This document shows, piece after piece, positions 6,660-59,122 of a DNA stretch of 64,000 bases. This stretch comes from a virus. The first letter of the stretch is position 1. Each line of letters starts with the position of its first letter. The translations under genes were made by a program, and so were the position numbers. The DNA is taken from the IMG/VR virus record IMGVR_UViG_3300027779_000011, positions 1-64,000 of that record; one strand, given 5' to 3'. The notes under the pieces were generated by a model. The model was not told where the DNA came from. It saw nothing but the letters and a program-made list of their open reading frames with translations, and did not search any database.

Positions 6660-6682
6660 GAGGTATCAAAAGGAGAATCAGA

Positions 6683-7150
6683 ATGAACAATCTTTCCGCA
6701 ATCAACGCCCTCGCTCTTTCCATCGCTGGCAAGCAAGGTGCAAAGTCCAGTCGCCCCGATGCTGGTGATTATCACGTTGGCTTTGAAGTCAGTTTTGATG
6801 ATGGGCAGTTTCTTCGGGTCAATGGCCCCGTTCGTCAGGGCGAGGATTACGATCAGGCCGTTTGGCAGAGCGTCCCGTGGCAGATGATTGCCGCCGTGCT
6901 ATTCAGCAAGACCAATGGGGTTACGATGGAGGCTGTAATGCGCGAGTCTTTGGAGTTGGTGGCGGGGGGCAAGCTCCCCGGCTATGTTGCGAACCCCGAC
7001 GATATTGACGAGGAAACGAAGCGTCCCAAGGTGATGCGGATCAAGGATGCTGCTTCTTTGGCAGTCAAGGCACTGACCGAGCAGACCACCAAGCCCTTCA
7101 AGGGTAAGGCTACCAACGGGCTGGTCTACTCTGGTCCTCGGGAGGGATGA
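6683..7150 (+). CDS. Hypothetical protein
   Basis: 155 residues with a good ribosome site (AAAAGGAG). It opens with a short helix (residues 3-16) and has a central strand pattern (H-V-G-F-E-V-S-F-D-D-G-Q-F-L-R-V) followed by helices; no family recognised. GC-rich third positions. After the stop, TGACAGGC/GCCTGTCA forms a hairpin around 7177-7205. Confidence 0.7.
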   Translation: MNNLSAINALALSIAGKQGAKSSRPDAGDYHVGFEVSFDDGQFLRVNGPVRQGEDYDQAVWQSVPWQMIAAVLFSKTNGVTMEAVMRESLELVAGGKLPGYVANPDDIDEETKRPKVMRIKDAASLAVKALTEQTTKPFKGKATNGLVYSGPREG

Positions 7151-7217
7151 GGGATAAATCGCACCACGTGCGACCGATGACAGGCCGGGGGAAAAATAGC
7201 CTGTCACCCTACCCTTA

Positions 7218-7237
7218 TTTCGCCAACCTTTTCTCCC
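7218..7237 (-). repeat. 20-bp motif, copy 8 (inverted, degenerate)
   Basis: The minus-strand reading gives GGGAGAAAAGGTTGGCGAAA. It lies directly before the gene at 7258 without an obvious early-class promoter between. Confidence 0.55.
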
Positions 7238-7257
7238 CACCTATTTATGGAGTATCC

Positions 7258-7479
7258 ATGTATAAAGCATCTACACTGATCGGAACCAAAGCCAAGAATC
7301 ACGCTCGCACGCCAACTCAGTTGTGGGGTATGGGCCTTAGCCCCGAGGAGGTCGAGCGTGTGTTCATAGTTGAGGTGTGGGGTTCTGGCATTATGGATCC
7401 CGGTCCTGATTTTACTGAGCATCGTGCGCTCGACAACAGTGGCTCCATTATTGCCACTCACCAAATGGATGGGTATTGA
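7258..7479 (+). CDS. Hypothetical protein
   Basis: 73 residues. The start is chosen at the ATG after TGGAGTATCC; a longer frame would run through the motif copy. It contains T-P-T-Q-L-W-G-M-G-L-S-P-E-E-V-E-R-V, possibly a helical adaptor, and ends in a polar tail. Not recognised. Confidence 0.6.
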   Translation: MYKASTLIGTKAKNHARTPTQLWGMGLSPEEVERVFIVEVWGSGIMDPGPDFTEHRALDNSGSIIATHQMDGY

Positions 7480-7500
7480 TTCTTGATTCGCCATGAAATA

Positions 7501-7529
7501 TTAGATATTTTTTTTGATTCAAATATGTA
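7501..7529 (+). promoter_or_regulatory. Early-class promoter (TTAGAT/TATGTA)
   Basis: TTAGAT, 17 bp with eight T, TATGTA; starts the unit of small membrane proteins and tRNA-Asn. Confidence 0.7.
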
Positions 7530-7547
7530 TACGTACAAGAGGGATGA

Positions 7548-7754
7548 ATGGACGGAGATAGCCAACAACAGAAGATGACCGATCTTATCATTTTCATCGG
7601 AATGGGGCTTGCGATTGGGTTCGCGTGGTTCAAGGTATATGCCGAGCCGAGAGAACAGTTTATTGTGCAGGTTATGGACTGCATGGCTGAGAATGGCGAT
7701 ATTCACTCAGAACTTATGTATGAAAACTGCGCGAAAGAAGTGCGAGGCAAATGA
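7548..7754 (+). CDS. Small membrane protein
   Basis: 68 residues after AGAGGG. A polar N-terminus (M-D-G-D-S-Q-Q-Q) precedes a hydrophobic span at about residues 11-30, and the rest carries two Cys and charged residues. Probably a single-pass membrane protein with a soluble C-terminal tail. Function unknown. Confidence 0.65.
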   Translation: MDGDSQQQKMTDLIIFIGMGLAIGFAWFKVYAEPREQFIVQVMDCMAENGDIHSELMYENCAKEVRGK

Positions 7755-7892
7755 ATGTTTGGAATAAGATTCGGATATGCGTATGATCGATCAAGAACTC
7801 AAGATATTATTGAGAGAATGAAGAAAAGAAACAAAGATCAGCGAGAGCTTGAAAAGAATGAAAAGAAAGAAAAGCAACCAGTAATGGGGTGA
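7755..7892 (+). CDS. Small lysine-rich protein
   Basis: 45 residues, starting one base after the preceding stop (ATGAATG arrangement). The second half is a Lys/Glu-rich, probably coiled helix. Its stop codon falls inside the first bases of tRNA-Asn, so transcription of the two is linked. Confidence 0.5.
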   Translation: MFGIRFGYAYDRSRTQDIIERMKKRNKDQRELEKNEKKEKQPVMG

Positions 7893-7961
7893 GGCGTCAC
7901 AGGCAGACGCACTCGGCTGTTACCCGAGATGTTGTTGGTTCGAGTCCAACCGCCCCAGCCA
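7885..7961 (+). tRNA. tRNA-Asn(GTT)
   Basis: Cloverleaf: acceptor TGGGGTG/CGCCCCA, anticodon stem CTCGG/CCGAG with loop CTGTTAC (GTT), T stem GTTGG/CCAAC, encoded CCA. The D loop is unusual (CACAGGCAG). Confidence 0.9.
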
Positions 7962-7976
7962 TATAGGAGGTTTAGC

Positions 7977-8087
7977 ATGACCTGGAACCGATTTTTGAAA
8001 ACGAAACTTGTGGAACGACAGTACACTAACAGGCAAGTGCTTGTGATTGCTTGTGTGGCACTGGCATTGGGAGCTATTTCATGTTGA
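7977..8087 (+). CDS. Small membrane or lipoprotein-like peptide
   Basis: 36 residues with a strong ribosome site (AGGAGG). A basic N-terminus precedes a hydrophobic segment V-L-V-I-A-C-V-A-L-A-L-G-A-I-S-C at the C-terminus. Overlaps the next gene (ATGTTGA). Confidence 0.5.
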   Translation: MTWNRFLKTKLVERQYTNRQVLVIACVALALGAISC

Positions 8088-8302
8088 GAGGAACTGAACT
8101 ATATAGCAATACCGTTCGCTCTGTTGGGGAACTTATTGTGAGTGGATTCTGGTATAGTGATGCGTGTGAAGCCATGTGGGTCATTCTTGGACTGACAGGG
8201 GAATCAGCGCCAGATGTCTGGTGGGACTTGTTTGAGCTTGACGTAAACGCATATACAGATGGTAGAAAAGTATCTATCCCGAAATATAAGACTATCTTTT
8301 AG
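8081..8302 (+). CDS. Hypothetical protein
   Basis: 73 residues, starting at the ATG that overlaps the end of the preceding gene. It includes Y-S-D-A-C-E-A-M-W-V-I-L-G-L and a C-terminal basic strand. No family recognised. Last plus-strand gene of this unit, followed by a motif copy. Confidence 0.6.
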   Translation: MLRGTELYSNTVRSVGELIVSGFWYSDACEAMWVILGLTGESAPDVWWDLFELDVNAYTDGRKVSIPKYKTIF

Positions 8303-8309
8303 TCTTACC

Positions 8310-8329
8310 GGGAGAAAAAGTTTACAAAA
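8310..8329 (+). repeat. 20-bp motif, copy 9
   Basis: GGGAGAAAAAGTTTACAAAA, a perfect copy, between the ends of two convergent units. Confidence 0.8.
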
Positions 8330-8342
8330 CACATATGTGCGC

Positions 8343-8522
8343 TCATAAGTAAGCACCGTTTCTGCGATGCCACACTCTTTCTCGCTCACATTCCACTCGA
8401 CACTCTTTTGCGTCTTCATAGATTTCGGCCAAGCCTTTATCGCTGGGGTATGGGTTTTGAATCCCCTCAAATCCCGCATCCCATGCTTTTTCTTCTTCTT
8501 TGGTAACAATATAGAGCCTCAT
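8343..8522 (-). CDS. Small acidic protein, minus strand
   Basis: 59 residues beginning M-R-L-Y-I-V-T-K-E-E-E-K-A-W-D-A-G-F. The ATG overlaps the stop of the minus-strand gene upstream (ATGA), so translation is coupled. Charged and helical; several Glu/Arg and two Cys. Not recognised. It is short and easily missed, but codon pattern and overlap support it. Confidence 0.65.
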   Translation of the reverse strand: MRLYIVTKEEEKAWDAGFEGIQNPYPSDKGLAEIYEDAKECRVECERERVWHRRNGAYL

Positions 8523-8731
8523 TTTAGGCGCCTACAAACCAACTCTTGATGAATAACCCCGTCAATAGCCCCCTTCATAACGGTCTGGAGATCACGAAGA
8601 TCGACGGGTCCATCCAGTTCTGCTTCTTTTATGGCAAATCGAACTACATCAGAAAATGAGTTACAAATAGCACTCGCATCATCAGTCCACTCTGAGTCGC
8701 CACTGGGCCGACGAATAAAAAGCTGAGTCAT
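8519..8731 (-). CDS. Hypothetical protein, minus strand
   Basis: 70 residues with ribosome site AAGGAGGGATGATTAT. N-terminal M-T-Q-L-F-I-R-R-P-S-G-D-S-E-W, then two helices, ending C-R-R-L-K. First gene of a two-gene minus-strand unit under the divergent promoter at 8755-8783. Confidence 0.7.
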   Translation of the reverse strand: MTQLFIRRPSGDSEWTDDASAICNSFSDVVRFAIKEAELDGPVDLRDLQTVMKGAIDGVIHQELVCRRLK

Positions 8732-8754
8732 ATAATCATCCCTCCTTACAAGTT

Positions 8755-8783
8755 CTTATATTACGATTATAAAAAATATCTCG
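8755..8783 (-). promoter_or_regulatory. Early-class promoter on minus strand (CGAGAT/TATAAG)
   Basis: Minus strand: CGAGAT, 17 bp, TATAAG; drives the two genes at 8343-8731. Confidence 0.7.
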
Positions 8784-8816
8784 CCTTTTGCTCCTGAGTC
8801 CGGGCGCCGCTGAACC

Positions 8817-8836
8817 GGGAGAAAAAGTTTGCAAAA
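8817..8836 (+). repeat. 20-bp motif, copy 10
   Basis: GGGAGAAAAAGTTTGCAAAA; sits between divergent promoters, 33 bp from the minus box and 19 bp from the plus box. Confidence 0.8.
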
Positions 8837-8855
8837 AGGTCCATCATTTCAAAAC

Positions 8856-8884
8856 TCAGATATTTTTTATAATCGCAATATAAT
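8856..8884 (+). promoter_or_regulatory. Early-class promoter (TCAGAT/TATAAT)
   Basis: TCAGAT, 17 bp, and a perfect TATAAT; starts a five-gene operon (8905-10078). Confidence 0.85.
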
Positions 8885-8904
8885 GAGGTATAAGAAAGGA
8901 GAAT

Positions 8905-9123
8905 ATGATGAAAGATTCTGGATTTGCACTTAGGTTGATTGTTTCAACTTCACTTGGGGAAGTAGTAGAGGGCATCTTGATGCTCCAGTCAAAGAGGGAT
9001 TCCGGTCGGGCTTCGATGGCTGAAACATTTCAGTTACTTCAATGGGAAGATGATTTGGATTATGTAATGAACAATCTTGAGGGAGATGCCGTCCCCGATC
9101 CTCGATTGGTAGGGAGGGCGTAA
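8905..9123 (+). CDS. Hypothetical protein
   Basis: 72 residues after AAAGGAG. Hydrophobic strand pattern at residues 6-18, then acidic helix with L-Q-W-E-D-D-L. Stop and next start overlap by one base, so coupled translation. Not recognised. Confidence 0.65.
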   Translation: MMKDSGFALRLIVSTSLGEVVEGILMLQSKRDSGRASMAETFQLLQWEDDLDYVMNNLEGDAVPDPRLVGRA

Positions 9124-9311
9124 TGATTGAAAATCTCATAACTAAGCTACTTGATGATGATCATGGAATAAACGAAGATGCTTTTCTTGAGTTGGTGAAA
9201 TATCTTGAACATATTGGAGCAGCGAATATGATCGATAAGCTCAATAAGAAAGTCGAAGCCTCTGATGGGAGGTTCTATTACCCCTTGCCAAACTTTTTTG
9301 GAGATGAATAA
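9123..9311 (+). CDS. Small helical protein
   Basis: 62 residues, amphipathic and acidic, starting at ATG overlapping the preceding stop codon. Likely all-helical for residues 1-45 with a short hydrophobic-aromatic tail. No known family. Confidence 0.65.
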   Translation: MIENLITKLLDDDHGINEDAFLELVKYLEHIGAANMIDKLNKKVEASDGRFYYPLPNFFGDE

Positions 9312-9568
9312 TGCAACGCCACCAAACCGAAAACTTTAGAGCCGATGGAGATAGCAAGCACCCCAATGGGCCGTACCTTGTGTTTGGCGACGGTTCAACC
9401 TACGCCGGAATAGAGGGGGCTGTTGTCTGCTATATTAGTGAAAATGGCGAGGAAGAACTTGATTCGATAAACGACTTCAAGGCCGTTAGTGAGGAAAGCG
9501 CGATGTACGTGTCCGTACACGAACTTCTAAACTGCTGGGCTATTGTGCATCAAGAGGGCAAAAGATGA
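9311..9568 (+). CDS. Hypothetical protein
   Basis: 85 residues, start overlapping the preceding stop by one base. Contains G-P-Y-L-V-F-G-D-G-S-T-Y-A-G-I-E-G-A-V-V-C, which reads as a small beta fold, followed by acidic residues and a helix. Function unknown. Confidence 0.65.
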   Translation: MQRHQTENFRADGDSKHPNGPYLVFGDGSTYAGIEGAVVCYISENGEEELDSINDFKAVSEESAMYVSVHELLNCWAIVHQEGKR

Positions 9569-9795
9569 ATAACCAAATATTTTCCTCACTTCCTCCGCGT
9601 GCATACAAGCGCTGCCCCAATAGTGATAAACATAAAAACTTTATCACAGGCGCTGCGGTATGCCAAGACTGGGTTGTTGACGGAACTGGAAACTTTATTG
9701 AGGTTTTTGACGAATGTACTCAAGTCCTTCATAAGCCTGATACTGAAAACGAATGGACATGCGCAGATTGTGGCGCGATATCTATATCTATATAA
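9565..9795 (+). CDS. Small protein with C-terminal zinc-ribbon-like pair
   Basis: 76 residues, overlapping the preceding gene by 4 bp. Cysteines occur at C-P near residue 17, around residue 33 and in a C-terminal W-T-C-A-D-C-G pair, so zinc binding is plausible. No family recognised. Confidence 0.65.
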   Translation: MNNQIFSSLPPRAYKRCPNSDKHKNFITGAAVCQDWVVDGTGNFIEVFDECTQVLHKPDTENEWTCADCGAISISI

Positions 9796-9817
9796 ATGAC
9801 AAATGGGAGGAGTGGTA

Positions 9818-10078
9818 ATGTTTCTATTCAAGTTGAGCCAAGATGTAAATAACGACTACGATACTTACAGCAGTTGTGTTGTTGTGGCGAAAGATCCAGA
9901 GAGTGCAAAGGCCATGGTTCCATATAATCCTGCGTTTGATGATGATGATGATGATGATTATTCATACAGGACGCAGGCGTGGGCGTACATCAAAGATGTG
10001 ACGGTTCAGTGTGTTGGACAGGCTGCCGATGGGCTAAGAGAGGGTGAGATTATTTGCGCCTCATTTCATGCCGGATAA
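9818..10078 (+). CDS. Hypothetical protein with poly-Asp run
   Basis: 86 residues, starting at the ATG after GGGAGGAGTGGTA. A GAT/GAC repeat (about 9939-9957) encodes a run of Asp in the middle, likely a slippage-prone, flexible acidic linker. Flanks are beta-like. The N-terminus F-L-F-K-L-S and V-V-V-A-K-D-P-E-S-A-K-A-M-V resemble small phage proteins that process sensory or modified residues, but no family is assigned. Confidence 0.65.
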   Translation: MFLFKLSQDVNNDYDTYSSCVVVAKDPESAKAMVPYNPAFDDDDDDDYSYRTQAWAYIKDVTVQCVGQAADGLREGEIICASFHAG

Positions 10079-10094
10079 TCTCCGGCGCCCTTTC

Positions 10095-10114
10095 GGGAGA
10101 AAAAGTTTGCAAAA
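10095..10114 (+). repeat. 20-bp motif, copy 11
   Basis: GGGAGAAAAAGTTTGCAAAA; 19 bp before the next TTAGAT. Confidence 0.8.
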
Positions 10115-10133
10115 AAAGGTGACCGAACAAAAG

Positions 10134-10162
10134 TTAGATATTTTTTATAATCACAATATATG
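10134..10162 (+). promoter_or_regulatory. Early-class promoter (TTAGAT/TATATG)
   Basis: First of two tandem promoters ahead of the gene at 10279: TTAGAT, 17 bp, TATATG. Confidence 0.8.
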
Positions 10163-10208
10163 GTGGTATCAGAGAGGCCGAGAGGCAGAAGGCAAAGGGT
10201 CGAAAAAC

Positions 10209-10237
10209 TCTGATATTTTTTACACCCTAACTATAAC
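10209..10237 (+). promoter_or_regulatory. Second tandem promoter (TCTGAT/TATAAC)
   Basis: TCTGAT, 17 bp, TATAAC, 75 bp after the first promoter. Tandem promoters suggest high expression of the downstream protein. Confidence 0.65.
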
Positions 10238-10278
10238 ACTGAAGACGGGATAAGCCGTCGAAACCAAAGGAACTAAAA

Positions 10279-10722
10279 ATGAGTAACATTTTTGAAAACG
10301 AAAAGAACGAGTCGGCAATCCAGACCATCAAAGAGACGATGAAGGTTTTTGCTGCCGATGACGGCACGCCAATGGTCAGTTTTGCCACTAATAAGGGCAA
10401 GGGTAGCGGCGCTCAGGTTATGAGTGTTGTGACATTTCGAGACTATGTTGAGGCTGTCTCGCATTATGCCGAAAATGGTATTGATGAGATTCCCACTCAG
10501 GATAACCTCTCTCCGGCAGAGACTGTTCACCAGACCATTTCTATGGATGACGATGGCATCGTATCGTTCCGAGTCCGAAGTGGAAAGGGTGCAAAGCCAG
10601 CCAAGATTCAGTCCCTCGATTTTCAAGATGTGGCGTCACTTCTTGAGTCCACAGTTAGTCCGGTTGAGGCGGCGGCGGAACGGCTGTCCCCTCAGACCAC
10701 CGATCTCGCCACAACTGAATAA
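10279..10722 (+). CDS. Conserved three-copy phage protein, copy A
   Basis: 147 residues, paralogous to the minus-strand genes 12508-12918 and 17603-18046. All three begin M-(A/S)-N-I-F and share a core with M-V-S-F-A-T-N-K-G-K-G, a Y-V-E-A-V-S-H-Y-A element, N-L-S-P-A and an acidic C-terminus. Lys/Gly-rich turns (S-G-K-G-A-K-P-A-K) suggest nucleic-acid binding, but no known domain is recognised. Three divergent copies under similar promoters imply an abundant protein. Confidence 0.8.
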   Translation: MSNIFENEKNESAIQTIKETMKVFAADDGTPMVSFATNKGKGSGAQVMSVVTFRDYVEAVSHYAENGIDEIPTQDNLSPAETVHQTISMDDDGIVSFRVRSGKGAKPAKIQSLDFQDVASLLESTVSPVEAAAERLSPQTTDLATTE

Positions 10723-10784
10723 ATAAGTCCCCTGACCTTGGGTAAGTCAAAAAACTGCCCATTTTTTACACACAGGAGATTTGT

Positions 10785-10973
10785 ATGCGCAGACCTAACT
10801 CAACAGTCCGCTCCAAGATTGATCGCAAGGCAGCCGCCGATGCTATTGCGGAGGAGCGGACCAAGCGTTCTGATGCGGAACAGCTTGCGATTCTTGATCA
10901 CAGACTTGGAGGTGGGGTCGGAGCAGGGCGCGAACGTAAGCGTCTGCTCGGTCGAATCGTTCCAAAGGGTTAG
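10785..10973 (+). CDS. Small basic protein
   Basis: 62 residues with ribosome site CAGGAG. Arg/Lys-rich N-terminus (M-R-R-P-N-S-T-V-R-S-K), helical middle and a G-R-E-R-K-R-L-L-G-R tail; could bind nucleic acid. No family recognised. Confidence 0.65.
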   Translation: MRRPNSTVRSKIDRKAAADAIAEERTKRSDAEQLAILDHRLGGGVGAGRERKRLLGRIVPKG

Positions 10974-11059
10974 AGTGTGTGTACAGGCGCAGGGAGGCAC
11001 GGCCTTATAGGTGCCTCAACAGTTATAAGAAAGGGTCCGATACACTTTAGGGGTGATTA

Positions 11060-11332
11060 GTGAATGTAGGCGACTTAGTAAGGCTAACAGGCCATCGGTG
11101 TCATGGGATTCATGGAGGGAGCAAGACGGTGGAGGGTACGATTATTGATATCTCCCCTCATACCGAAACCTATGCATCTTCTGGATGCTTAGAGTATTTA
11201 GTTCTAACCCCCACCGGCCTGAAACACCGATGCTGGAAAGGTGACTTGATTGTTGTTAGAAAAGTCTCGGAACATGGAAGCTGGCATAAACTGTGCGGCA
11301 CTCCAGTGATGCATCCGCCCCAAAAAAATTAG
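11060..11332 (+). CDS. Hypothetical protein, small beta-barrel-like
   Basis: 90 residues from a GTG start. M-N-V-G-D-L-V-R-L-T-G opening, H-G-I-H-G-G and T-V-E-G-T-I-I-D-I strands resemble KOW/SH3-like small barrels. Cys and His residues are scattered. No strong ribosome site; start is moderately certain. Confidence 0.6.
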   Translation: MNVGDLVRLTGHRCHGIHGGSKTVEGTIIDISPHTETYASSGCLEYLVLTPTGLKHRCWKGDLIVVRKVSEHGSWHKLCGTPVMHPPQKN

Positions 11333-11385
11333 TGGATTTTACTCGACATTCTTCAGCGGAGGGGGCAGGCGAAAGTCGCCCCCTC

Positions 11386-11405
11386 GGGAGAAAAAGCTTA
11401 CAAAA
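11386..11405 (+). repeat. 20-bp motif, copy 12
   Basis: GGGAGAAAAAGCTTACAAAA; one mismatch, 16 bp before the next promoter box. Confidence 0.75.
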
Positions 11406-11421
11406 CACAAGAAAGTAAAAG

Positions 11422-11450
11422 TTAGATATTTTTTATAACCAAAGTATATA
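11422..11450 (+). promoter_or_regulatory. Early-class promoter (TTAGAT/TATATA)
   Basis: TTAGAT, 17 bp, TATATA, ahead of the gene at 11471. Confidence 0.8.
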
Positions 11451-11470
11451 GAGGTGTAAGGGGGCTTAGA

Positions 11471-11878
11471 ATGAAAGATTACTACTCTACCGAAGAACTC
11501 ATGCTCCGTACGATCATAGATATTTCGCGTGACAATGCCCTTCAGGAAGTAGATATTCTCGCTCTTGAAGAACGTGTGCGCACACTGACTGAGGCAGAAA
11601 GTTCAGATCATGTTCAGAATCTTGAGCGCAAACTAAGGGCCATTCAGCAGTCTTTTGAATCCATCCTGGTCAACCCTGATCGCAAGATCCCCATGATCAA
11701 GATGTATCGGGCTATTTTCAACTCTGGGCTAAAAGACTCCAAGCACGCTATCGAGAGGTCTGAGCTATGGAATAGGTGCAAGGTCGCTAAAATCAGCGTG
11801 GTGGGTGTGCAGAATAGTTCTCCACCCGAGGGCATCGCAGAGATATTGCCGTCGTGGTTCGATGGGGAGGAGACTTGA
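11471..11878 (+). CDS. Protein with ribosomal L7/L12 C-terminal-like helix motif
   Basis: 135 residues. The N-terminal half is acidic and coiled-coil-like (residues 25-60). Around residues 73-96 the pattern K-I-P-M-I-K-M-Y-R-A-I-F-N-S-G-L-K-D-S-K matches the factor-binding face of the L7/L12 C-terminal domain (K-x-x-x-I-K-x-x-R-x-x-x-x-x-G-L-K-E-A-K). That surface binds translation factors in ribosomes. Whether this protein does so is inference; similar modules are known in phage proteins of unknown role. Followed by a 15-codon frame at 11880 that is too short to call. Confidence 0.65.
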   Translation: MKDYYSTEELMLRTIIDISRDNALQEVDILALEERVRTLTEAESSDHVQNLERKLRAIQQSFESILVNPDRKIPMIKMYRAIFNSGLKDSKHAIERSELWNRCKVAKISVVGVQNSSPPEGIAEILPSWFDGEET

Positions 11879-12033
11879 TATGAAAGTATGTCCAAAGGAT
11901 GCAAGATGCGGCACTGAGGCGTCATAATAATATCGTTCCTGCCTTTGCCTTGGCGTCGACGGACAGAAGGGCATCGAATACTGGACGACCGCTGGCAGAG
12001 CGGGGGGAAAATACTCTGCCTTTCTTCCCCCCC

Positions 12034-12053
12034 GGGAGAAAAAGTTTGCAAAA
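12034..12053 (+). repeat. 20-bp motif, copy 13
   Basis: GGGAGAAAAAGTTTGCAAAA, preceded by a GGGGGGAA/TTCCCCCC hairpin (about 12002-12033). It lies downstream of both a plus-strand gene and a minus-strand gene. Confidence 0.75.
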
Positions 12054-12106
12054 TTTGTGCACGCAAGGGCGCGACCTACCTTGGTTGGCGGGCCGCGCTC
12101 CTAATA

Positions 12107-12271
12107 CTATCTCCCGATACGGTCACGGATCTTCGCCCTAAGCCCACAAGCCTTGTCAGAATCGGTGGGCAAACGGTCCAGAAAGGCCATTAGCTCCGCG
12201 TCTCCCGCAGACTTGTTTCTTAGAGCAGACCGAACCTCAAGGAATAAGATTCTACGATCTTGACATTCCAT
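12107..12271 (-). CDS. Small protein, minus strand
   Basis: 54 residues beginning M-E-C-Q-D-R-R-I-L-F-L-E-V with a strong ribosome site (AGGAGG) 6 bases upstream, behind the promoter at 12341-12369. Charged and helical throughout (E-L-M-A-F-L-D-R-L-P, then A-K-I-R-D-R-I-G-R). Not recognised. GC-rich codons like other early genes. Confidence 0.65.
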   Translation of the reverse strand: MECQDRRILFLEVRSALRNKSAGDAELMAFLDRLPTDSDKACGLRAKIRDRIGR

Positions 12272-12340
12272 TGGCACCTCCTGCTAAAAGTGTATCGAGA
12301 GGATGATTTGTGATAAGGAACCCTCATCACCTCTCGCCCT

Positions 12341-12369
12341 TTTATATTTTGATTCAAAAAAATATCTAA
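12341..12369 (-). promoter_or_regulatory. Early-class promoter on minus strand (TTAGAT/TATAAA)
   Basis: Minus strand: TTAGAT, 17 bp with seven T, TATAAA. It drives the 54-residue protein at 12107-12271. Confidence 0.8.
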
Positions 12370-12414
12370 GTTTTGCCTTGCCTCTCCCGAGGATCTCAAA
12401 TCTTTCGATCTTTT

Positions 12415-12434
12415 GGGAGAAAAAGTTTACATAA
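12415..12434 (+). repeat. 20-bp motif, copy 14
   Basis: GGGAGAAAAAGTTTACATAA; one mismatch, 45 bp upstream of the minus-strand promoter box. Confidence 0.7.
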
Positions 12435-12507
12435 TATAATAAATATATTTCATTTGAAAATAGCAAGGGCAGTTTTCATCTCTTGCCCAGGAGCTTTCAT
12501 TATAGCT

Positions 12508-12918
12508 TTATGAAAGGGTTTCACCTGCCGCTTCAACTGAATCAACAGTGGCGGAAAGAAGGCTGGAAACCTCACCGAACTCATCGGCATTTAGCTTGGC
12601 GGGCTTGGAGCCTTTACCAGACTTGATTCTGAAGCTAATAACTTCGTCCTCAAGGGAGATGGTTTGATGAACCATTTGAGCGGGAGAAAGGTTCTCATCA
12701 GATGCAGTCTCACTGATACCGTTTTCGGCGTAATGAGATACAGCACTAACGTAATCAGCAAAATCGCTAACTGCCATTACTTGAGATCCTGTACCCTTCC
12801 CCTTATTGGTAGCAAAAGAAACCATCGGGATGCCGTCATCAGATAGAAAGACCTTCATGGTTTCCTTTACAATCTGAACAGCGGAGAGTTCAACTTCGTC
12901 ATTGAAGATGTTGGCCAT
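12508..12918 (-). CDS. Conserved three-copy phage protein, copy B
   Basis: 136 residues. The start is chosen at M-A-N-I-F-N-D, aligned with its paralogues at 10279 and 17603; the longer upstream frame is not supported. Compared with copies A and C it lost the acidic end and differs at many positions, while the K-G-K-G turn, V-S-H-Y-A-E-N-G and Q-T-I-S-L-E-D blocks remain. Single-gene minus-strand unit. Confidence 0.8.
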   Translation of the reverse strand: MANIFNDEVELSAVQIVKETMKVFLSDDGIPMVSFATNKGKGTGSQVMAVSDFADYVSAVSHYAENGISETASDENLSPAQMVHQTISLEDEVISFRIKSGKGSKPAKLNADEFGEVSSLLSATVDSVEAAGETLS

Positions 12919-12970
12919 TTTATTAGCTCCTATCAATCTTGTCTTTCGGCACCATGCCTTCTGACATACA

Positions 12971-12999
12971 CATATATATGCGTTATAAAAAATATCTAA
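12971..12999 (-). promoter_or_regulatory. Early-class promoter on minus strand (TTAGAT/TATATG)
   Basis: Minus strand: TTAGAT, 17 bp, TATATG, upstream of copy B. Confidence 0.8.
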
Positions 13000-13043
13000 G
13001 TTTTGCACTACTTGGATCTCGTGAGCATCTCCCGCCACTAATC

Positions 13044-13063
13044 GGGAGAAAAGGTTTATAAAG
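13044..13063 (+). repeat. 20-bp motif, copy 15 (degenerate 3' end)
   Basis: GGGAGAAAAGGTTTATAAAG, 44 bp upstream of the minus-strand promoter box at 12994-12999. Confidence 0.6.
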
Positions 13064-13163
13064 TTTATTATTGTGGCATTTGATACTATAATGATATTTT
13101 GTCTATGTATAGTATATAACGGTGTGAGAACGAGATACCAGCCTAATGACAGGGAGAGTACCA

Positions 13164-13427
13164 ATGATTGAAGTAGAGTATGAAGGTAACACTTATGGAT
13201 TTTGTAAAAGAACCAATGATACCTATTGGATTGGAATAAGAGGAAGTAGAAACGTCATGTTTCCCGGTCCCTATTGTGCCGTTCCATTGTCTTTTTATAA
13301 AGAACTTCATAGGAAGGCTTTGGAGGATGGACATGAGGAATCTATCTTTAGAAACCCGAAGAAGCAAAAGAAGGTTCGCTCTGCACGAGTTAGGGCTAAG
13401 AAAGAAGTTGGAATCAAAATTTTTTAA
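13164..13427 (+). CDS. Small protein of the M-I-E-V-x-Y family, copy 1
   Basis: 87 residues, starting after AGGGAGAGTACCA. It shares M-I-E-V-(E/D)-Y-x-G-x-T-Y, a V-P-(L/V)-S-(F/L)-Y-x-(E/K)-L core and a K-I-F end with the protein at 53319-53558, 40 kb away. The fold is probably a small beta sheet followed by a helix and a basic tail. Function unknown. Confidence 0.7.
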   Translation: MIEVEYEGNTYGFCKRTNDTYWIGIRGSRNVMFPGPYCAVPLSFYKELHRKALEDGHEESIFRNPKKQKKVRSARVRAKKEVGIKIF

Positions 13428-13440
13428 TCAGGAGTTTGTA

Positions 13441-13671
13441 ATGTCTATTGGCCGAAAAGAAATGAATGATGCAATCCAGAAGTTCATTAGTGAAGGTGGA
13501 GAGATCGTTCAGATGAAGTATGCTAACGAGAAGGTGCAAAACAAATCTCATCGTAAATCATATCATATTTTGAGACAGGATGATAACCCCCGATCTAAAG
13601 AATATCTTGAGCGAGAGGATAAGAAGGAATCTCAGCTTGTTTTCTCAAAAGATGATCGGATGCGTCAATAA
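13441..13671 (+). CDS. Small protein with G-G-E-I motif
   Basis: 76 residues, starting at the ATG after AGGAGTTTGTA. Residues 8-25 (A-I-Q-K-F-I-S-E-G-G-E-I-V-Q-M-K) match a segment of the gene at 18416 (F-L-S-N-G-G-E-I-D-Y-I-K), so the two are distant relatives. The rest is basic. Function unknown. Confidence 0.65.
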   Translation: MSIGRKEMNDAIQKFISEGGEIVQMKYANEKVQNKSHRKSYHILRQDDNPRSKEYLEREDKKESQLVFSKDDRMRQ

Positions 13672-13782
13672 AAAAGATAGCTTTGCCCCCCCGCAGCGGG
13701 GGGGATGGAGTATGTGTGCGTACACATATAAGTTAAATATATTTTTTCTATTTGAATTATTCAATGCTAACAGAGTAAGATT

Positions 13783-13917
13783 ATGATTGTTACATTGGTT
13801 GCGGGATTTCTTGCAGGAGTTGGAGTTTGCGATTTTTCAAGGAATAAGAAGTTTTCAGGAACGTGCATGTGTGTGCTTTCTGTCTTGCTTATTTTTTCAT
13901 CTATCGGAATTTTTTAA
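13783..13917 (+). CDS. Small membrane protein
   Basis: 44 residues with two hydrophobic segments (about 2-15 and 29-43) separated by a polar, basic stretch; probably spans the membrane twice. A T-rich TTAAAT promoter-like sequence lies at 13733. Ribosome site is weak (AGAGTAAG). Confidence 0.5.
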   Translation: MIVTLVAGFLAGVGVCDFSRNKKFSGTCMCVLSVLLIFSSIGIF

Positions 13918-13929
13918 TTAGGAAATAAA

Positions 13930-14118
13930 ATGGATACAGAAACTAAGAGTGATGTTACTATGCAAAGGTCTAATAGGCGATTTAACCCCTACAGGGTAAC
14001 CATTATGGTGACTAATAATCAAACTGGCGCTGTGTTCACGCACAGAGGCTTGACCAGACATGAGGCTGAGTGGATCGACCTCGATCCAAACCTAACTGTA
14101 GAGTATTTGAAACACTAA
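13930..14118 (+). CDS. Hypothetical protein
   Basis: 62 residues, preceded by TAGGAAATAAA. Middle strands P-Y-R-V-T-I-M-V-T-N and G-A-V-F-T-H, then E-A-E-W-I-D helix. No family recognised. Ends 18 bp before tRNA-Lys and is probably cotranscribed with it. Confidence 0.6.
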   Translation: MDTETKSDVTMQRSNRRFNPYRVTIMVTNNQTGAVFTHRGLTRHEAEWIDLDPNLTVEYLKH

Positions 14119-14136
14119 GAACCTTTAGGAAAATGA

Positions 14137-14212
14137 GGGTCCATAGCTCAACTGGTAGAGCATCGGACTTTTAATCCGCAGGTTCTGGGTTCGAGTCCCA
14201 GTGGACCCACCA
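14137..14212 (+). tRNA. tRNA-Lys(TTT)
   Basis: Acceptor GGGTCCA/TGGACCC, anticodon loop CTTTTAA (TTT), T loop TTCGAGT, CCA encoded. Confidence 0.95.
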
Positions 14213-14227
14213 TTTTCTCAACTTTGA

Positions 14228-14305
14228 AGGCCCATAGCTCAATCAGGTTAGAGCATCGCTCTCATAAAGCGCAGGTTCTCGGTTCAAGTCCGAGTGGGCC
14301 TACCA
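14228..14305 (+). tRNA. tRNA with CAT anticodon, probably Ile2 (lysidine-modified)
   Basis: Acceptor AGGCCCA/TGGGCCT, anticodon loop CTCATAA (CAT), T loop TTCAAGT, CCA encoded. Its acceptor has C4-G69 and C5-G68, the pairs I recall as favouring TilS recognition in E. coli, and TilS is encoded at 52279. It could also be elongator tRNA-Met; the sequence alone does not decide. Confidence 0.85.
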
Positions 14306-14323
14306 TTTATTTAGGATTTAATT

Positions 14324-14524
14324 ATGGATAGTTCAGTGAAGAATTACTGGCCGAGTACACAGCTATGTATGGAGTGTGAGCATAGCATATCTGTAATGGG
14401 TGATGACGAGCCTACATACGTGTGTTCAGTTGGCGTAAAACTTGGACCTTGCGAATCCAAGTGCGAGGAGCAATCTGAAATTGTCGAGGAATCCCCATTG
14501 GGAGATGACCCTATTCACTGGTAA
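14324..14524 (+). CDS. Cysteine-rich small protein
   Basis: 66 residues. Cysteines pair as C-M-E-C, C-S and C-E-S-K-C, a likely zinc-binding arrangement. C-terminus is acidic. No family assigned. Starts 18 bp after the tRNA. Confidence 0.65.
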   Translation: MDSSVKNYWPSTQLCMECEHSISVMGDDEPTYVCSVGVKLGPCESKCEEQSEIVEESPLGDDPIHW

Positions 14525-14538
14525 ACGCCCTCCCTTTC

Positions 14539-14558
14539 GGGAGAAAAAGTTTACAAAA
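14539..14558 (+). repeat. 20-bp motif, copy 16
   Basis: GGGAGAAAAAGTTTACAAAA; here GGGAG closes a CTCCC-TTTC-GGGAG hairpin, so it doubles as a possible terminator stem. 25 bp before the next promoter box. Confidence 0.8.
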
Positions 14559-14583
14559 TATTTTGCAATCCATAGTTAAATTA

Positions 14584-14612
14584 TTAGATATTTTTTTTAA
14601 TCAGAATATATC
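14584..14612 (+). promoter_or_regulatory. Early-class promoter (TTAGAT/TATATC)
   Basis: TTAGAT, 17 bp with eight T, TATATC; starts the run of genes from 14636 to about 16636. Confidence 0.75.
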
Positions 14613-14635
14613 TTCGTATCAGGAGGTAGTCTGCT

Positions 14636-14920
14636 ATGAATAGAGTTAGGGCAATTAGAGAAGATGCTATTGTTGGTATCGGAAGCTGTTCATCTATTGA
14701 TGAGTGCTTAACAAATATTGAAGTTCGTGATCTTCTTGATGAAGATAACATCACAACTTCCTATGAAGCTGTGAAATGGGCAAGGGATAGAGAGCTTTTT
14801 TATCTTGAAAATGCTATGAACTATCGCCGGGGTGGTGATGATGATCCCCAGCTTAGCGATTACCATTCTTTTGAGAAGCTAATAAAAGAAAACCCAATCT
14901 CTTTAATTACAAAGCTCTAA
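14636..14920 (+). CDS. Hypothetical acidic protein
   Basis: 94 residues with strong ribosome site (AGGAGG). Mostly helical and acidic, including D-E-C-L-T-N-I-E-V-R-D-L-L-D-E-D. No recognised motif. Confidence 0.65.
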   Translation: MNRVRAIREDAIVGIGSCSSIDECLTNIEVRDLLDEDNITTSYEAVKWARDRELFYLENAMNYRRGGDDDPQLSDYHSFEKLIKENPISLITKL

Positions 14921-14934
14921 AGGAATTAAGAACT

Positions 14935-15102
14935 ATGGTCTGGACCGCTATCCTTTCTAATGGAATAAACACTACTTCAGAATATATCATGACGGATACC
15001 CCCTGTCATGAAAAGGCGGTAGCAGCCTTTTATAACGTCAGGGTTGAAAACGGTATGTTTCTTGTTGCGATAATTAAAGGACGACATGAAGTTTATGTTT
15101 AA
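14935..15102 (+). CDS. Small hypothetical protein
   Basis: 55 residues beginning M-V-W-T-A-I-L-S-N-G, with alternating hydrophobic residues toward V-R-V-E-N-G-M-F-L-V-A-I-I-K-G; a small beta fold. AGGAATTAAGAACT precedes the start. Overlaps the next gene by 17 bp. Confidence 0.55.
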   Translation: MVWTAILSNGINTTSEYIMTDTPCHEKAVAAFYNVRVENGMFLVAIIKGRHEVYV

Positions 15103-15250
15103 TCTTTTAAAGAATGAGTTTAAGTTTGTAAAGAATAGGATGTATATGCTTGGTCTAAACAAGTGGCATCTTCTCTCAATCTTATCTCTTGAAATCATTG
15201 GATGGACTCTTATTTTTATTCTTGGCTATAAAGCCTACAACTGTTGTTAG
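15086..15250 (+). CDS. Small membrane protein
   Basis: 54 residues with ribosome site AAAGGACGAC. Basic N-terminal helix (K-N-E-F-K-F-V-K-N-R), then one hydrophobic span (about residues 29-48) ending in Y-N-C-C. Single-pass membrane protein of unknown role. Confidence 0.6.
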   Translation: MKFMFNLLKNEFKFVKNRMYMLGLNKWHLLSILSLEIIGWTLIFILGYKAYNCC

Positions 15251-15258
15251 GAAATATC

Positions 15259-15549
15259 ATGACAAATAAAAATGTAATTAACGCTTGGGTAGATGGCCGT
15301 ATAGCCAGTAGTTGCAACGGCAACATGTCTACAAACGGTGTAGATCTCTATTCATATAATCTAAAGATTGCTTCAAGGCAGGACCATCAGTTCAGGATTT
15401 GGGACTATACAGCAAGCGGTCATTATTACTCTCAGACTACCTCATGTCATGTGAGTTTGGCGCTAAGAATGTTGGACGGAAGTTTCTTTCTTATGCAGCC
15501 AAACACTGACGGTTCTCCTGATGACTATTATAAAAATCTATCTGCTTGA
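15259..15549 (+). CDS. Hypothetical protein
   Basis: 96 residues, start at the ATG after AGGAAATATC. Rich in Ser, Asn, Tyr and His; strands such as D-G-S-F-F-L-M-Q-P. Not recognised. Confidence 0.65.
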   Translation: MTNKNVINAWVDGRIASSCNGNMSTNGVDLYSYNLKIASRQDHQFRIWDYTASGHYYSQTTSCHVSLALRMLDGSFFLMQPNTDGSPDDYYKNLSA

Positions 15550-15577
15550 TATTCAATCTAAAAAAAGAGAGTAAAAG

Positions 15578-15913
15578 ATGCTCACTCGTAGACAATTCTT
15601 TGCACGTATGCGCAAATTAGGTTTCTCCAAATCACGTATGCAGATGACTCGCATTGGCTTAACATACGTGAGGGATGACGAAAATGGGCGTGTTACCGTG
15701 ACGGTTCCCAAGTATCATGAGTCAACCTTTACCATCTTGGGAGATACGCCAAATAGCGGCATCTTTGTTAAGGACATCGGAAAGGAAACTAACTGGGGAA
15801 TTCCCGTTAATCCTAATTCAATTGGCCTGAATAATATGCTGGAGGTATGCCTTGGGCTTTGCTCTGGTGATGTTCACATGACGGCTCCTGATTATGAACG
15901 ATATGAGGGGTAA
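15578..15913 (+). CDS. Hypothetical protein
   Basis: 111 residues. Basic N-terminal helix (R-R-Q-F-F-A-R-M-R-K-L-G-F-S-K-S-R-M), then a beta-rich stretch and an acidic C-terminal part. No family recognised. Confidence 0.65.
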   Translation: MLTRRQFFARMRKLGFSKSRMQMTRIGLTYVRDDENGRVTVTVPKYHESTFTILGDTPNSGIFVKDIGKETNWGIPVNPNSIGLNNMLEVCLGLCSGDVHMTAPDYERYEG

Positions 15914-15917
15914 TGAC

Positions 15918-16190
15918 ATGTACCGAATCGGAAGCATCATCGAGTATCAAACATTCACAGGCGCTGCTCGCATTGTTCTTGTGGAGGAAAAGGATGATGA
16001 CATAAAGAATGGCCGGGCAGGTTTTGGCGGAATACTTGAGCCAAGCCATATGAAAAATGCCGAACTCCGCGCCGAACGACCGGGCATTTCTAAGCTGGAA
16101 AACCGCCCCCGAAAGTTCGAGAACGGAGTGGCGGAAGGGGCGGGAGTCTGGGGCTACGATAGTCAGATTACTAAAGTATTAAAGTACTAA
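15918..16190 (+). CDS. Hypothetical protein
   Basis: 90 residues, start at the ATG after GAGGGGTAATGAC. Begins with a likely barrel strand set (M-Y-R-I-G-S-I-I-E-Y; A-A-R-I-V-L-V-E-E-K) and ends G-V-W-G-Y-D-S-Q-I-T-K-V. The fold suggests a small regulatory or adaptor protein. Function unknown. Confidence 0.65.
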   Translation: MYRIGSIIEYQTFTGAARIVLVEEKDDDIKNGRAGFGGILEPSHMKNAELRAERPGISKLENRPRKFENGVAEGAGVWGYDSQITKVLKY

Positions 16191-49611: not shown

Positions 49612-49687
49612 AACAATGTAGCTCAGTTGGCAGAGCGGCTGATTTGTAATCAGCAGGTCGTAGGTTCGACTCCTATCAATGGCTCCA
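49612..49687 (+). tRNA. tRNA-Thr(TGT), acceptor stem degenerate
   Basis: D, anticodon (loop TTTGTAA, TGT) and T arms are normal and the end is CAATGGC-T-CCA, but the 5' strand is AACAATG instead of GCCATTG. Only about four of seven acceptor pairs form, so it may be inactive or need repair. Confidence 0.7.
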
Positions 49688-52007: not shown

Positions 52008-52085
52008 AGGGCTATAGCTCAATTTGGTTAGAGCGGCTGTCTCATAAACAGCAGGTTCCCGGTTCAAGTCCGGGTAGCCCTACCA
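52008..52085 (+). tRNA. tRNA with CAT anticodon (Met, or Ile2)
   Basis: Acceptor AGGGCTA/TAGCCCT, anticodon loop CTCATAA (CAT), T loop TTCAAGT, CCA encoded. TilS is encoded 194 bp downstream. Its acceptor has G4-C69, unlike the CAT tRNA at 14228, so this copy is more likely elongator Met, but not certainly. Confidence 0.85.
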
Positions 52086-52104
52086 TTAACAAGAGGCGAG
52101 AACA

Positions 52105-52275
52105 GTGAGTCAAGAAGAAAGCACAATGGTCCAATACTTAAAGGGACTGGAGAGAAGGATTAAGTTCCTTGAGGATACGATAGTAACCCTCTTAGTTGCA
52201 CTAAAAGAAGGTGGGGTAATAGTTGATTCTGATGAAGAACTAGACAATAAACAATATCAATTTGATTTCGAATAA
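52105..52275 (+). CDS. Small coiled protein
   Basis: 56 residues from GTG after AGAGGCGAGAACA. A helix M-V-Q-Y-L-K-G-L-E-R-R-I-K-F-L-E and an acidic tail. It sits between tRNA-CAT and TilS, 3 bp before the latter. Not recognised. Confidence 0.6.
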   Translation: MSQEESTMVQYLKGLERRIKFLEDTIVTLLVALKEGGVIVDSDEELDNKQYQFDFE

Positions 52276-52278
52276 AGC

Positions 52279-52911
52279 ATGTTTAAGCTAACACATAAAA
52301 TTCCAGATTCGATCTTAATCGCCGTATCTGGTGGCGCAGATTCTATGGCAGCACTAGACTTTCTAAAACAGGGAAGGTCCGTAGGGGTTCTTCATTTTAA
52401 CCACGGAACAATCCATGCGGCTGAAGCACAAAAGTGTGTTGAGGATTACTGCACAGAAAATAATTTAGAACTCAAGGTTGGATATATAAATAAAGATGTC
52501 CCAAAGGGAGTCTCAAGAGAAGACTTCTGGAGAAGAGAAAGGTACAATTTTCTTGACTTCTCATCAAAAGCATTTTGGGGCGGTCTATATACAGAACATG
52601 CCTCTCCGGTTGTAACATGCCACCATCTAGATGATGCCGTAGAGACTTGGCTATTTACGTCTATGCACGGAGAGGGAAGGCTCATTCCATCTAAAAGGGA
52701 TAATTATATCAGGCCGTTTCTAGTAACCAGAAAGGCTGTTTTTGAAGACTGGTGTGATAGAAAAGATGTGCCATATGTAGTCGATCCAAGTAATCTGGAT
52801 ACTTCATTTATGAGAAACTATATTCGGCACGAACTGATGCCACACGCCCTAAGAGTTAACCCTGGAATTCACAAGGTTATTAGAAAAAAAATTATCAACT
52901 CACTTGGTTGA
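52279..52911 (+). CDS. tilS: tRNA(Ile)-lysidine synthetase
   Basis: 210 residues. PP-loop S17-G-G-A-D-S22, H-F-N-H-G, S-R-E-D-F-W-R-R-E-R-Y, C-H-H-L-D-D-A-V-E-T and P-S-N-x-D-x-x-F-x-R-N-Y-I-R-H are the TilS family blocks. The C-terminal regulatory domains of cellular TilS are absent. It converts C34 of tRNA-Ile(CAT) to lysidine so that ATA is read as isoleucine. The genome is rich in ATA codons and encodes two CAT tRNAs. Confidence 0.9.
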   Translation: MFKLTHKIPDSILIAVSGGADSMAALDFLKQGRSVGVLHFNHGTIHAAEAQKCVEDYCTENNLELKVGYINKDVPKGVSREDFWRRERYNFLDFSSKAFWGGLYTEHASPVVTCHHLDDAVETWLFTSMHGEGRLIPSKRDNYIRPFLVTRKAVFEDWCDRKDVPYVVDPSNLDTSFMRNYIRHELMPHALRVNPGIHKVIRKKIINSLG

Positions 52912-52918
52912 TGATTAT

Positions 52919-53004
52919 GGCTGAGTGGTGGAACGGTATACACAGGAGACTTAAAATCTCCCGCCCCATTGGGCTTGCGGGTTCGAATCCCGCCTCAGCT
53001 ACCA
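52919..53004 (+). tRNA. tRNA-Leu(TAA)
   Basis: Class II tRNA with long variable arm; acceptor GGCTGAG/CTCAGCT, anticodon loop CTTAAAA (TAA), T loop TTCGAAT, ends ACCA. Confidence 0.95.
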
Positions 53005-57521: not shown

Positions 57522-58721
57522 ATGTCGAATGAAAGTTATTTGTGGACCAGCGAATGTGTTGGTGCAGGGCATCCAGATAAGGTTGCAGACCAGATATCAG
57601 ATGCTGTTTTGGATTCATATTTATCGGAAGATAAAAATTCAAAAGTTGCTTGCGAGACAATGATTGCACCAGGGCTTATAGTTGTAGCTGGAGAGGTAAA
57701 TTCCAAGCTGAGACACCTTGATGTTAATGGTTTAGCAAAACAGGTTGTTTCTGATATTGGATATAATTCTAGAAATGGTTTTGATATAGACTCATGCAAG
57801 GTTATAAACGCAATTGGCTCTCAGTCAAATCAGATAAATAACGCAGTTGAAACAGAGGGTGTTGACTCCGGAGCGGGTGATCAGGGGATGATGTTTGGTT
57901 ACGCTACAAATGAAACGGATTCTTTCATGCCAACATCAATTGAGATTTCTAGGAAGATAACGAACTTCTTTGATCTGGCCAGAACTCAGGAGGGTGTAAC
58001 TATGCTTGAGCCTGACTTCAAAACACAGGTTACCCTAAGGTGTTCTGATGATGGCTCTCCAATCGCTGTCGATGCAGTTGTTATATCTTCGCAGCACAAG
58101 GCAGGGTACCAGCTGATAGAGGTAAGGGAAATGCTTAGGTCTTTAGTTAGAAATTGCGTTTCCGGTATGCCTAAAAAGCTATCAAGTCTTTTTACGAATG
58201 ATACAAGGTACTTGCTAAACCCATCTGGATTATGGACCCTTGGTGGTCCAGCCGCAGATACGGGTCTTACTGGAAGAAAGATTGTTGTTGATAACTATGG
58301 CTCTGATTGCCAAATCGGAGGTGGTGCGTTCTCAGGAAAAGATCCATCTAAGGTAGATAGGTCTGCTGCTTACGCGGCTAGATATGTAGCCAAGAACATT
58401 GTTGCTTCTGGAATATCAGATAAAGTAAAGATTCAGCTTTCATATGCCATTGGAGTTTCAGAAGCTGTTTCTTTCAGGGTAGACACGATGGGGACTTCGA
58501 ATGTTAAATACGCTGATCACGAAATAGAAAGTATGGTATCCGAGGTATTTAAAACAACTCCTTCTAATATAATTGAAAAGCTACAGCTCAGAAACCCCAT
58601 ATATAGGAGCACGGCATCCAATGGTCATTTTGGAATTTCTCCTTATAGACATGATAATATTTCGTATTATACATGGGAGGAGCTTTCTGAGGTTGATGGC
58701 TTGAAGTTAATGTTCTTTTAA
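57522..58721 (+). CDS. metK: S-adenosylmethionine synthetase
   Basis: 399 residues, full length. E-C-V-G-A-G-H-P-D-K-V-A-D-Q-I-S-D, G-A-G-D-Q-G-M-M-F-G-Y-A, and G-G-G-A-F-S-G-K-D-P-S-K-V-D-R-S are the MAT signatures (ATP, metal and Met sites). The usual tetrapeptide G-H-P-D-K is intact. It makes SAM from Met and ATP, which would feed the SAM methyltransferases in this window. AGGAG ribosome site. Confidence 0.95.
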   Translation: MSNESYLWTSECVGAGHPDKVADQISDAVLDSYLSEDKNSKVACETMIAPGLIVVAGEVNSKLRHLDVNGLAKQVVSDIGYNSRNGFDIDSCKVINAIGSQSNQINNAVETEGVDSGAGDQGMMFGYATNETDSFMPTSIEISRKITNFFDLARTQEGVTMLEPDFKTQVTLRCSDDGSPIAVDAVVISSQHKAGYQLIEVREMLRSLVRNCVSGMPKKLSSLFTNDTRYLLNPSGLWTLGGPAADTGLTGRKIVVDNYGSDCQIGGGAFSGKDPSKVDRSAAYAARYVAKNIVASGISDKVKIQLSYAIGVSEAVSFRVDTMGTSNVKYADHEIESMVSEVFKTTPSNIIEKLQLRNPIYRSTASNGHFGISPYRHDNISYYTWEELSEVDGLKLMFF

Positions 58722-58727: not shown

Positions 58728-59122
58728 GGGGGCGTACTGGTTTCGACAGGGTAATAAGGTCGGATAGTGCAGGCGGTCTACGGTAACAGATGACCTAAAA
58801 ATTGTTACAAAAAACTATAATTGCCAATAACAATTATTATTACAGCAACGTCGCTTTAGCGGCTTAGTTGTCTGGGCCTCTAACGGCCTCGTCACCCAAT
58901 GTTAGATAACAGGTAGAGATCCTGCGAAATAAAAAAATCAAGATGGATACCTCATTTGTATCGGTGAAAGTCCGACTGTAGGGATGAGTGGACTTCTGAG
59001 GCTACATAGGAAGAGGGTTTTTGTGGCTACCTTGCTGATTTGGGAATACATCAGATAAGCTTGTGAATGACTTGAAGGAAGAGTTACTCTGGACGCGGAT
59101 TCGATTTCCGCCGCCTCCACCA
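58728..59122 (+). ncRNA. ssrA: tmRNA (ssrA)
   Basis: About 395 bases. Acceptor GGGGGCG at the 5' end pairs with CGCCTCC before ACCA. The 5' TGGTTTCGACAGGG and the 3' T arm GCGGA-TTCGATT-TCCGC are typical. The tag frame at 58823-58867 encodes ANNNYYYSNVALAA and stop, with the usual A-L-A-A end. It rescues stalled ribosomes and tags products for proteolysis. It lies 6 bp after metK. Confidence 0.95.

Follow-up and report, generated by a model that had tools for sequence, protein, structure and literature searches.

The phage represented by this DNA most likely carries a linked AUA-decoding cassette (probability about 0.75), in which a tRNA-Ile2 gene with the anticodon CAT (tRNA 52008) is followed on the same strand by a gene for a lysidine synthetase (TilS) consisting of the catalytic domain only. 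This reading is based on the two genes, the motifs and fold of the protein, the Ile2-like sequence of the tRNA, and a linkage conserved in related viruses. The DNA analyzed (hereinafter referred to as the window) comprises the first 64,000 bases of the 158,716-base IMG/VR record IMGVR_UViG_3300027779_000011. In the proposed mechanism, a single transcript would yield tRNA 52008 and the TilS message. TilS would then use ATP to activate C34 and attach lysine there, tRNA 52008 presumably being the molecule chosen for modification, and the modified tRNA, charged by the host IleRS, would read AUA, which is used very often for Ile across most of the window. An earlier reading of this DNA from its letters (the sequence-only reading) had proposed that the phage supplies both the enzyme and the substrate for reading ATA, which is supported here as the most likely explanation. 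Since the host possesses a TilS itself, the cassette does not account for the need for a phage enzyme, which counts against this reading. The features of the locus, together with those around a second CAT tRNA (tRNA 14228), are listed in Table 1.

Table 1. Features of the tRNA-TilS locus and of the second CAT tRNA in the window.
Feature	Position	Strand	Basis	Remarks
tRNA CAT, Ile2-like (tRNA 52008)	52008..52085	+	ARAGORN; Rfam RF00005, 71.3 bits; reference comparison; linkage	Acceptor AGGGCTA (A1-U72, G3-C70, G4-C69, C5-G68); A15-U48, C32
Possible 56-aa ORF	52105..52275	+		GTG start; between tRNA and tilS
tilS, catalytic (N-terminal) domain only	52279..52911	+	TIGR02432; ATP_bind_3; model and fold match	210 aa
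tRNA-Leu(TAA)	52919..53004	+	ARAGORN	Starts 7 nt past tilS stop
tRNA-Lys(TTT)	14137..14212			16 nt before tRNA 14228
Second tRNA CAT, Ile2-like (tRNA 14228)	14228..14305	+	ARAGORN; Rfam; reference comparison	Acceptor AGGCCCA (C4-G69, C5-G68); A15-U48, C32

The presence of TilS next to a CAT tRNA, as described in the sequence-only reading, was borne out. The ORF scored 108.6 bits against TIGR02432 (lysidine_TilS_N; cut-off, 93.6) and matched Pfam ATP_bind_3, while a PHROGs search of the same ORF returned no TilS family and gave weak QueC-like or unknown matches. The TilS motifs PP-loop SGGxDS, HHxDD, RPF, and RNxxR were all present and aligned with the solved TilS sequences. Among 27 viral TilS sequences, S17, G18, G19, D21, S22, H115, D118, D119, R145, P146, R179, N180, and R183 were invariant, and H116 was nearly so. 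An AlphaFold model based on the alignment of these 27 sequences had a mean pLDDT of 94.6, and the top five entries in a fold search of solved structures were all TilS. The model aligned with Aquifex aeolicus TilS 2e89 over 203 residues (VIA Z, 23.8; rmsd, 2.0), the whole model lying on residues 6-232, and with 3a2k, a TilS solved with tRNA, over residues 1-230 of its 462-residue chain (Z, 21.4). In a fold search of viral proteins, two viral proteins ranked top. Because the full span of the model aligned to the N-terminal part of solved TilS, the window TilS corresponds to the N-terminal catalytic domain alone. Its activity as a lysidine synthetase at C34 is predicted from the sequence and the model.

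Bacterial TilS has been divided into type I, with the C-terminal domains CTD1 and CTD2, and type II, which is devoid of CTD2; the domains touch both the anticodon stem and the acceptor stem and help to tell tRNA-Ile2 from tRNA-Met, according to the available text of PMC12514573. The window TilS resembles both types (1ni5, 3a2k, 2e21/2e89/1wy5) in the sequence and fold of the catalytic domain, but differs in ending where this domain ends; having neither CTD1 nor CTD2, it belongs to neither type. The absence of C-terminal domains, already suspected in the earlier reading, was thus confirmed by the length, by the model alignment, and by a profile search of the whole 158,716-base record with PF09179 and PF11734, which gave no match, the sensitivity of this search being limited (the two profiles exceeded the cut-off in 4 and 6 of 14 control genomes, respectively). 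A split TilS with its C-terminal domain on a separate gene was rejected on the same result, with the same limited sensitivity. At the C-terminus of the protein (residues about 193-209), a conserved V-N-P-G leads into a basic helix, a candidate tRNA contact; with this segment the viral TilS ends about where the bacterial enzymes continue into their C-terminal domains.

The window TilS was about half as long as eight of the nine bacterial TilS ORFs that were measured (411-500 aa), which could indicate an inactive or repurposed remnant. This is very improbable in view of the motif residues kept invariant in the 27 diverged sequences, the complete domain fold predicted by the model, and the phylogeny, in which 64 viral sequences of 74 TilS formed one group separate from the 10 bacterial sequences (support, 100). 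The ninth bacterial ORF, from Rickettsiella massiliensis (L094, 5001-5603), had 253 aa and may be a truncated, split, or short form.

The two CAT tRNAs named in the sequence-only reading were both detected by ARAGORN and Rfam, with scores exceeding the Rfam tRNA gathering score. That reading regarded tRNA 14228 as the Ile2 substrate and tRNA 52008 as not, on the grounds of acceptor pairs: C4-G69 together with C5-G68 is the determinant recognized by E. coli TilS. These pairs are not conserved across all bacteria, according to the available text of PMC12069591. Both pairs were confirmed in tRNA 14228; for tRNA 52008, the reported absence of C4-G69 held (G4-C69 is found instead), but C5-G68 is present, contrary to the claim.

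To classify the two tRNAs, 29 Ile2 and 29 elongator Met references were taken from bacterial genomes. Their labels were assigned in this analysis, anchored on E. coli ileX and metT/metU (RefSeq annotation) and then extended by elimination genome by genome, drawing on position 32, the 31-39 pair, and the acceptor. Excluded from the references were the fMet group (37 distinct sequences), elongators with unsettled labels (L146/L165/L206, L205, L256, L257, L259, L260, L266, L280, and L281), L262/L278 (near-copies of L158), and the MAG-binned phage contigs L215, L223, and L242. Labeling from positions 4-5 alone was dropped, as it was right for only 53 of 64 left-out references, because some Ile2 tRNAs are devoid of C4-C5. 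A position-weight score assigned 58 of 58 left-out references correctly, a figure that is partly circular because the labels share the scored features, and gave +33.6 for tRNA 14228 and +12.6 for tRNA 52008. The body-only score, which omits positions 3-5 and 68-70 and is less circular, was right for 54 of 58 and gave +6.6 and +3.1, respectively; both values were above those of all Met references, none of which exceeded 0.0. Based on the two scores, both tRNAs are Ile2-like, tRNA 52008 less strongly. The classification proposed in the earlier reading thus did not return Met for the pair, which was the outcome named there as refuting.

Individual positions were consistent with these scores. G3-C70, found in both window tRNAs, occurred in 25/29 Ile2 and 0/29 Met references, whereas C3-G70, present in all 29 Met references, was found in neither, which speaks against the elongator Met type for both. 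Both also contained C5-G68 (Ile2 27/29, Met 5/29), A15-U48 (5/29 and 0/29), and C32 (29/29 and 12/29), while their A1-U72 pair was found in none of the 58 references. Accordingly, tRNA 14228 has every Ile2 feature considered, including C4-G69 (Ile2 24/29, Met 0/29), and tRNA 52008 has the CAT anticodon, C32, G3-C70, and C5-G68 and is devoid of C4-G69, for which reason it is called Ile2-like and not E. coli-type Ile2. The division made in the sequence-only reading, with tRNA 52008 as an elongator Met tRNA and only tRNA 14228 (or the host Ile2) as substrate, could draw on the lower scores of tRNA 52008 and on its G4-C69 pair, which was more common in Met (13/29) than in Ile2 (1/29) references. 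However, G3-C70 and A15-U48 were absent from the Met references, C3-G70 was universal in them, and tRNA 52008 is the one linked to TilS, a position kept in relatives; the division is therefore improbable and that part of the claim is probably wrong. Linkage across relatives points to tRNA 52008 as a TilS substrate, and since the window TilS has no C-terminal domains, the C4-G69/C5-G68 criterion need not apply to it. As tRNA 14228 is Ile2-like and has the acceptor pairs read by E. coli TilS, it could be served by either the host or the phage enzyme.

The neighborhood of tRNA and TilS exceeded chance. Of the 17 tRNAs that preceded a viral TilS by ≤300 nt on its strand, 12 had the anticodon CAT, compared with 27 of the 221 tRNAs lying within 10 kb (binomial P = 4e-8). 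In the clade of the window TilS, a CAT tRNA was found just upstream in 9 of 10 members, and the tenth (L100) had one about 1 kb upstream. At linked loci other than the window, 7-25 nt separated the CCA end from the TilS start, except for the first tandem tRNA of L072 (96 nt). Across all 61 TilS clusters, a CAT tRNA lay ≤300 nt upstream in 11 and ≤300 nt downstream in 3 more; the other 47 had no same-strand CAT tRNA within 300 nt, which counts against the cassette reading. Of TilS loci found later via the tRNA, 5/10 had a CAT tRNA within 100 nt of TilS. A CAT-tRNA pattern was matched in 30 of 47 records (47 of 63 loci), a count that mixes tRNAs with chance matches. Because related viruses often keep the tRNA and TilS together, the pair probably acts as a self-contained decoding kit.

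The possible 56-aa ORF between the two genes had no confident family match and lacked a counterpart at the other 10 loci with a linked upstream tRNA. Its stop and the tilS start are 3 nt apart, an arrangement that would allow translational coupling. Promoter-like sites were no more frequent than expected by chance. In L072 (and L061), tandem CAT tRNAs ended 96 and 15 nt before TilS, and the one nearer TilS had an odd body and the acceptor GGAAGGA.

The inverted acceptor pair G4-C69 was associated with TilS. Among distinct CAT tRNAs with A15-U48, it was found in 16/36 from TilS-bearing records and 1/33 from TilS-less records (Fisher's exact test, 5e-5), the two sets having been drawn by different patterns; counted by distinct acceptor stem, the figures were 9/25 and 1/29 (p = 0.003). 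The 1-72 pair was also weaker with TilS (A-U or G-U in 21/36 vs. 5/33). In a reverse test, a single pattern for the G4-C69 acceptor type yielded 28 viral contigs, all of which were used; 18 held TilS (17 over the cut-off, and one, G138, full-length but below it at 80.8 bits), compared with 4 of 41 unselected contigs. When 12 contigs already known as TilS-bearing were removed, the ratio was 6/16 vs. 4/41 (p = 0.02). Four of the 28 contigs (L446, L447, L450, and L467) had no matching tRNA by ARAGORN. The unselected sample consisted of 41 of 80 loci, on larger contigs, from a scan that gave at least 119 stretches, and L315 and L376, with sub-cut-off TilS matches, were scored as TilS-less in it.

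These associations bear on a stronger form of the cassette reading, overlapping with it in probability, in which a TilS without C-terminal domains suits a G4-C69 tRNA and the pair is partly independent of the host TilS. We regard this form as tentative. Both the comparison of records and the reverse test favor it, but C4-G69 was kept in 15/36 CAT tRNAs of TilS-bearing records, TilS-less records with G4 occurred (one of 223 kb, L470), and one of the 29 bacterial Ile2 references also had G4-C69. Moreover, the counts take no account of relatedness, which inflates them, so that the association is a lead and not proof. By extension, large phages might possess a further TilS architecture, in which an acceptor-blind catalytic domain and a dedicated tRNA-Ile2 with an inverted determinant form a portable, partly host-independent AUA-decoding pair, although we hold this to be rather less than an even chance.

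ARAGORN identified nine tRNAs and one tmRNA in the window. The tRNA set (Asn GTT twice, Lys TTT, Gly TCC, Arg CCT, Arg TCT, Leu TAA, and two CAT) takes in readers of AT-rich codons. An eleventh RNA, absent from the ARAGORN list, was called as a tRNA by Rfam at 49614-49681 (53.3 bits). In the ORF calls, ATA accounted for 42% of Ile codons across the window and for 46-51% at 16-48 kb, in agreement with the frequent use assumed previously, but for only 20% in the first 16 kb. This part (1-16000) also had a G+C content (0.41-0.50) above that of the rest, and a match to an anti-restriction protein was located inside it (3844-4761).

High ATA use in the window, together with the occurrence of similar CAT tRNAs in many phages without a TilS match, would fit a plain dosage effect, in which the phage TilS only supplements the host enzyme in serving many AUA codons and the altered acceptor reflects drift under relaxed selection. 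However, median ATA use was 17.7 per 1000 in TilS-bearing records and 14.8 in TilS-less records with such a tRNA, with no significant difference (p = 0.20). ATA demand alone thus fails to explain TilS carriage and was rejected as its cause; the same result counts against the cassette reading. The long retention of TilS beside the tRNA also suggests more than loose dosage, and we consider the dosage explanation possible without favoring it. Another alternative is that TilS, devoid of the acceptor-reading CTD1 and CTD2, also lysidinylates host CAU tRNAs and disturbs host Met decoding at takeover, since the phage tRNAs have the same anticodon loop, CTCATAA, as many Met and Ile2 tRNAs of bacteria. 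Such promiscuity is unlikely, as it would harm phage translation too and the presence of a linked phage tRNA suggests that the enzyme has a dedicated substrate.

As for known systems, the cassette reading has a precedent in a T4-like vibriophage, in which one of the two tRNA(CAU) carried lysidine, according to the available text of a review (PMC13191261). As in that phage, two CAU tRNAs are present here, and a phage CAU tRNA is predicted to be an AUA reader. The same review credited phage tRNA modification to host enzymes. The viral TilS family suggests that there are phages that supply the modifying enzyme together with the tRNA. Pseudomonas phages MIJ3 and PA5oct (NC_071039) share with the window a catalytic-domain-only TilS (203 aa in PA5oct), 47% identical to that of the window, and several CAT tRNAs. 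Unlike in the window, PA5oct tilS has no adjoining CAT tRNA, the nearest being about 7 kb upstream; this separation also counts against the cassette reading. In the available text of the MIJ3 paper (2019; PMC6892783), TilS was described as new to phages and of unknown function, and no tie to tRNA-Ile2 was drawn. Within the texts available to an open-licence literature search, this was the one paper recognized on a phage-encoded TilS, and no tRNA-TilS cassette was described. A similar CAT tRNA, annotated as tRNA-Ile, was found in Stenotrophomonas phage RAS14 and Acinetobacter phage Konradin, which, unlike the window, are outside the cultured-phage records matching the window TilS. Giant-virus TilS, such as that of Dasosvirus, is also virus-borne and shares the fold, but has 696 aa and belongs to a virus of eukaryotes. 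The viral TilS family without C-terminal domains, which is widespread and often located beside its likely substrate, makes it directly testable what the catalytic domain alone discriminates, and tRNA 52008 with TilS is a candidate for a compact tRNA-enzyme pair in studies of decoding.

A short phage TilS had been considered uncommon. This was true of cultured phages, where the window TilS had matches in 32 of 50,697 records, but not of viral metagenomes, in which a profile-guided scan of IMG/VR found at least 516 TilS-like viral stretches. The 13 cultured-phage matches above 41% identity were 11 PA5oct-like Pseudomonas records and two huge phages, while the 19 weaker matches (27-36% identity) may be host DNA. 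From the scan, 80 of the at least 516 confirmed stretches were kept, and the working set comprised 90 TilS loci (the window, 85 viral contigs, and 4 MAG contigs), which fell into 61 protein clusters with representatives of 196-240 aa (median, 203). Four contigs binned in bacterial MAGs (L090, L091, L092, and L100; Flavobacteriales, Opitutia, and Gammaproteobacteria) looked like phage contigs and contained a short TilS and CAT tRNAs.

In addition, a phage-borne tmRNA was identified in the window at 58728-59122 (122 bits), with the tag ANNNYYYSNVALAA. It starts 6 nt past an ORF (57522-58721) that matched phrog_1569 and resembles the S-adenosylmethionine synthetase of streptococcal phages. A tmRNA was also present at locus L010.
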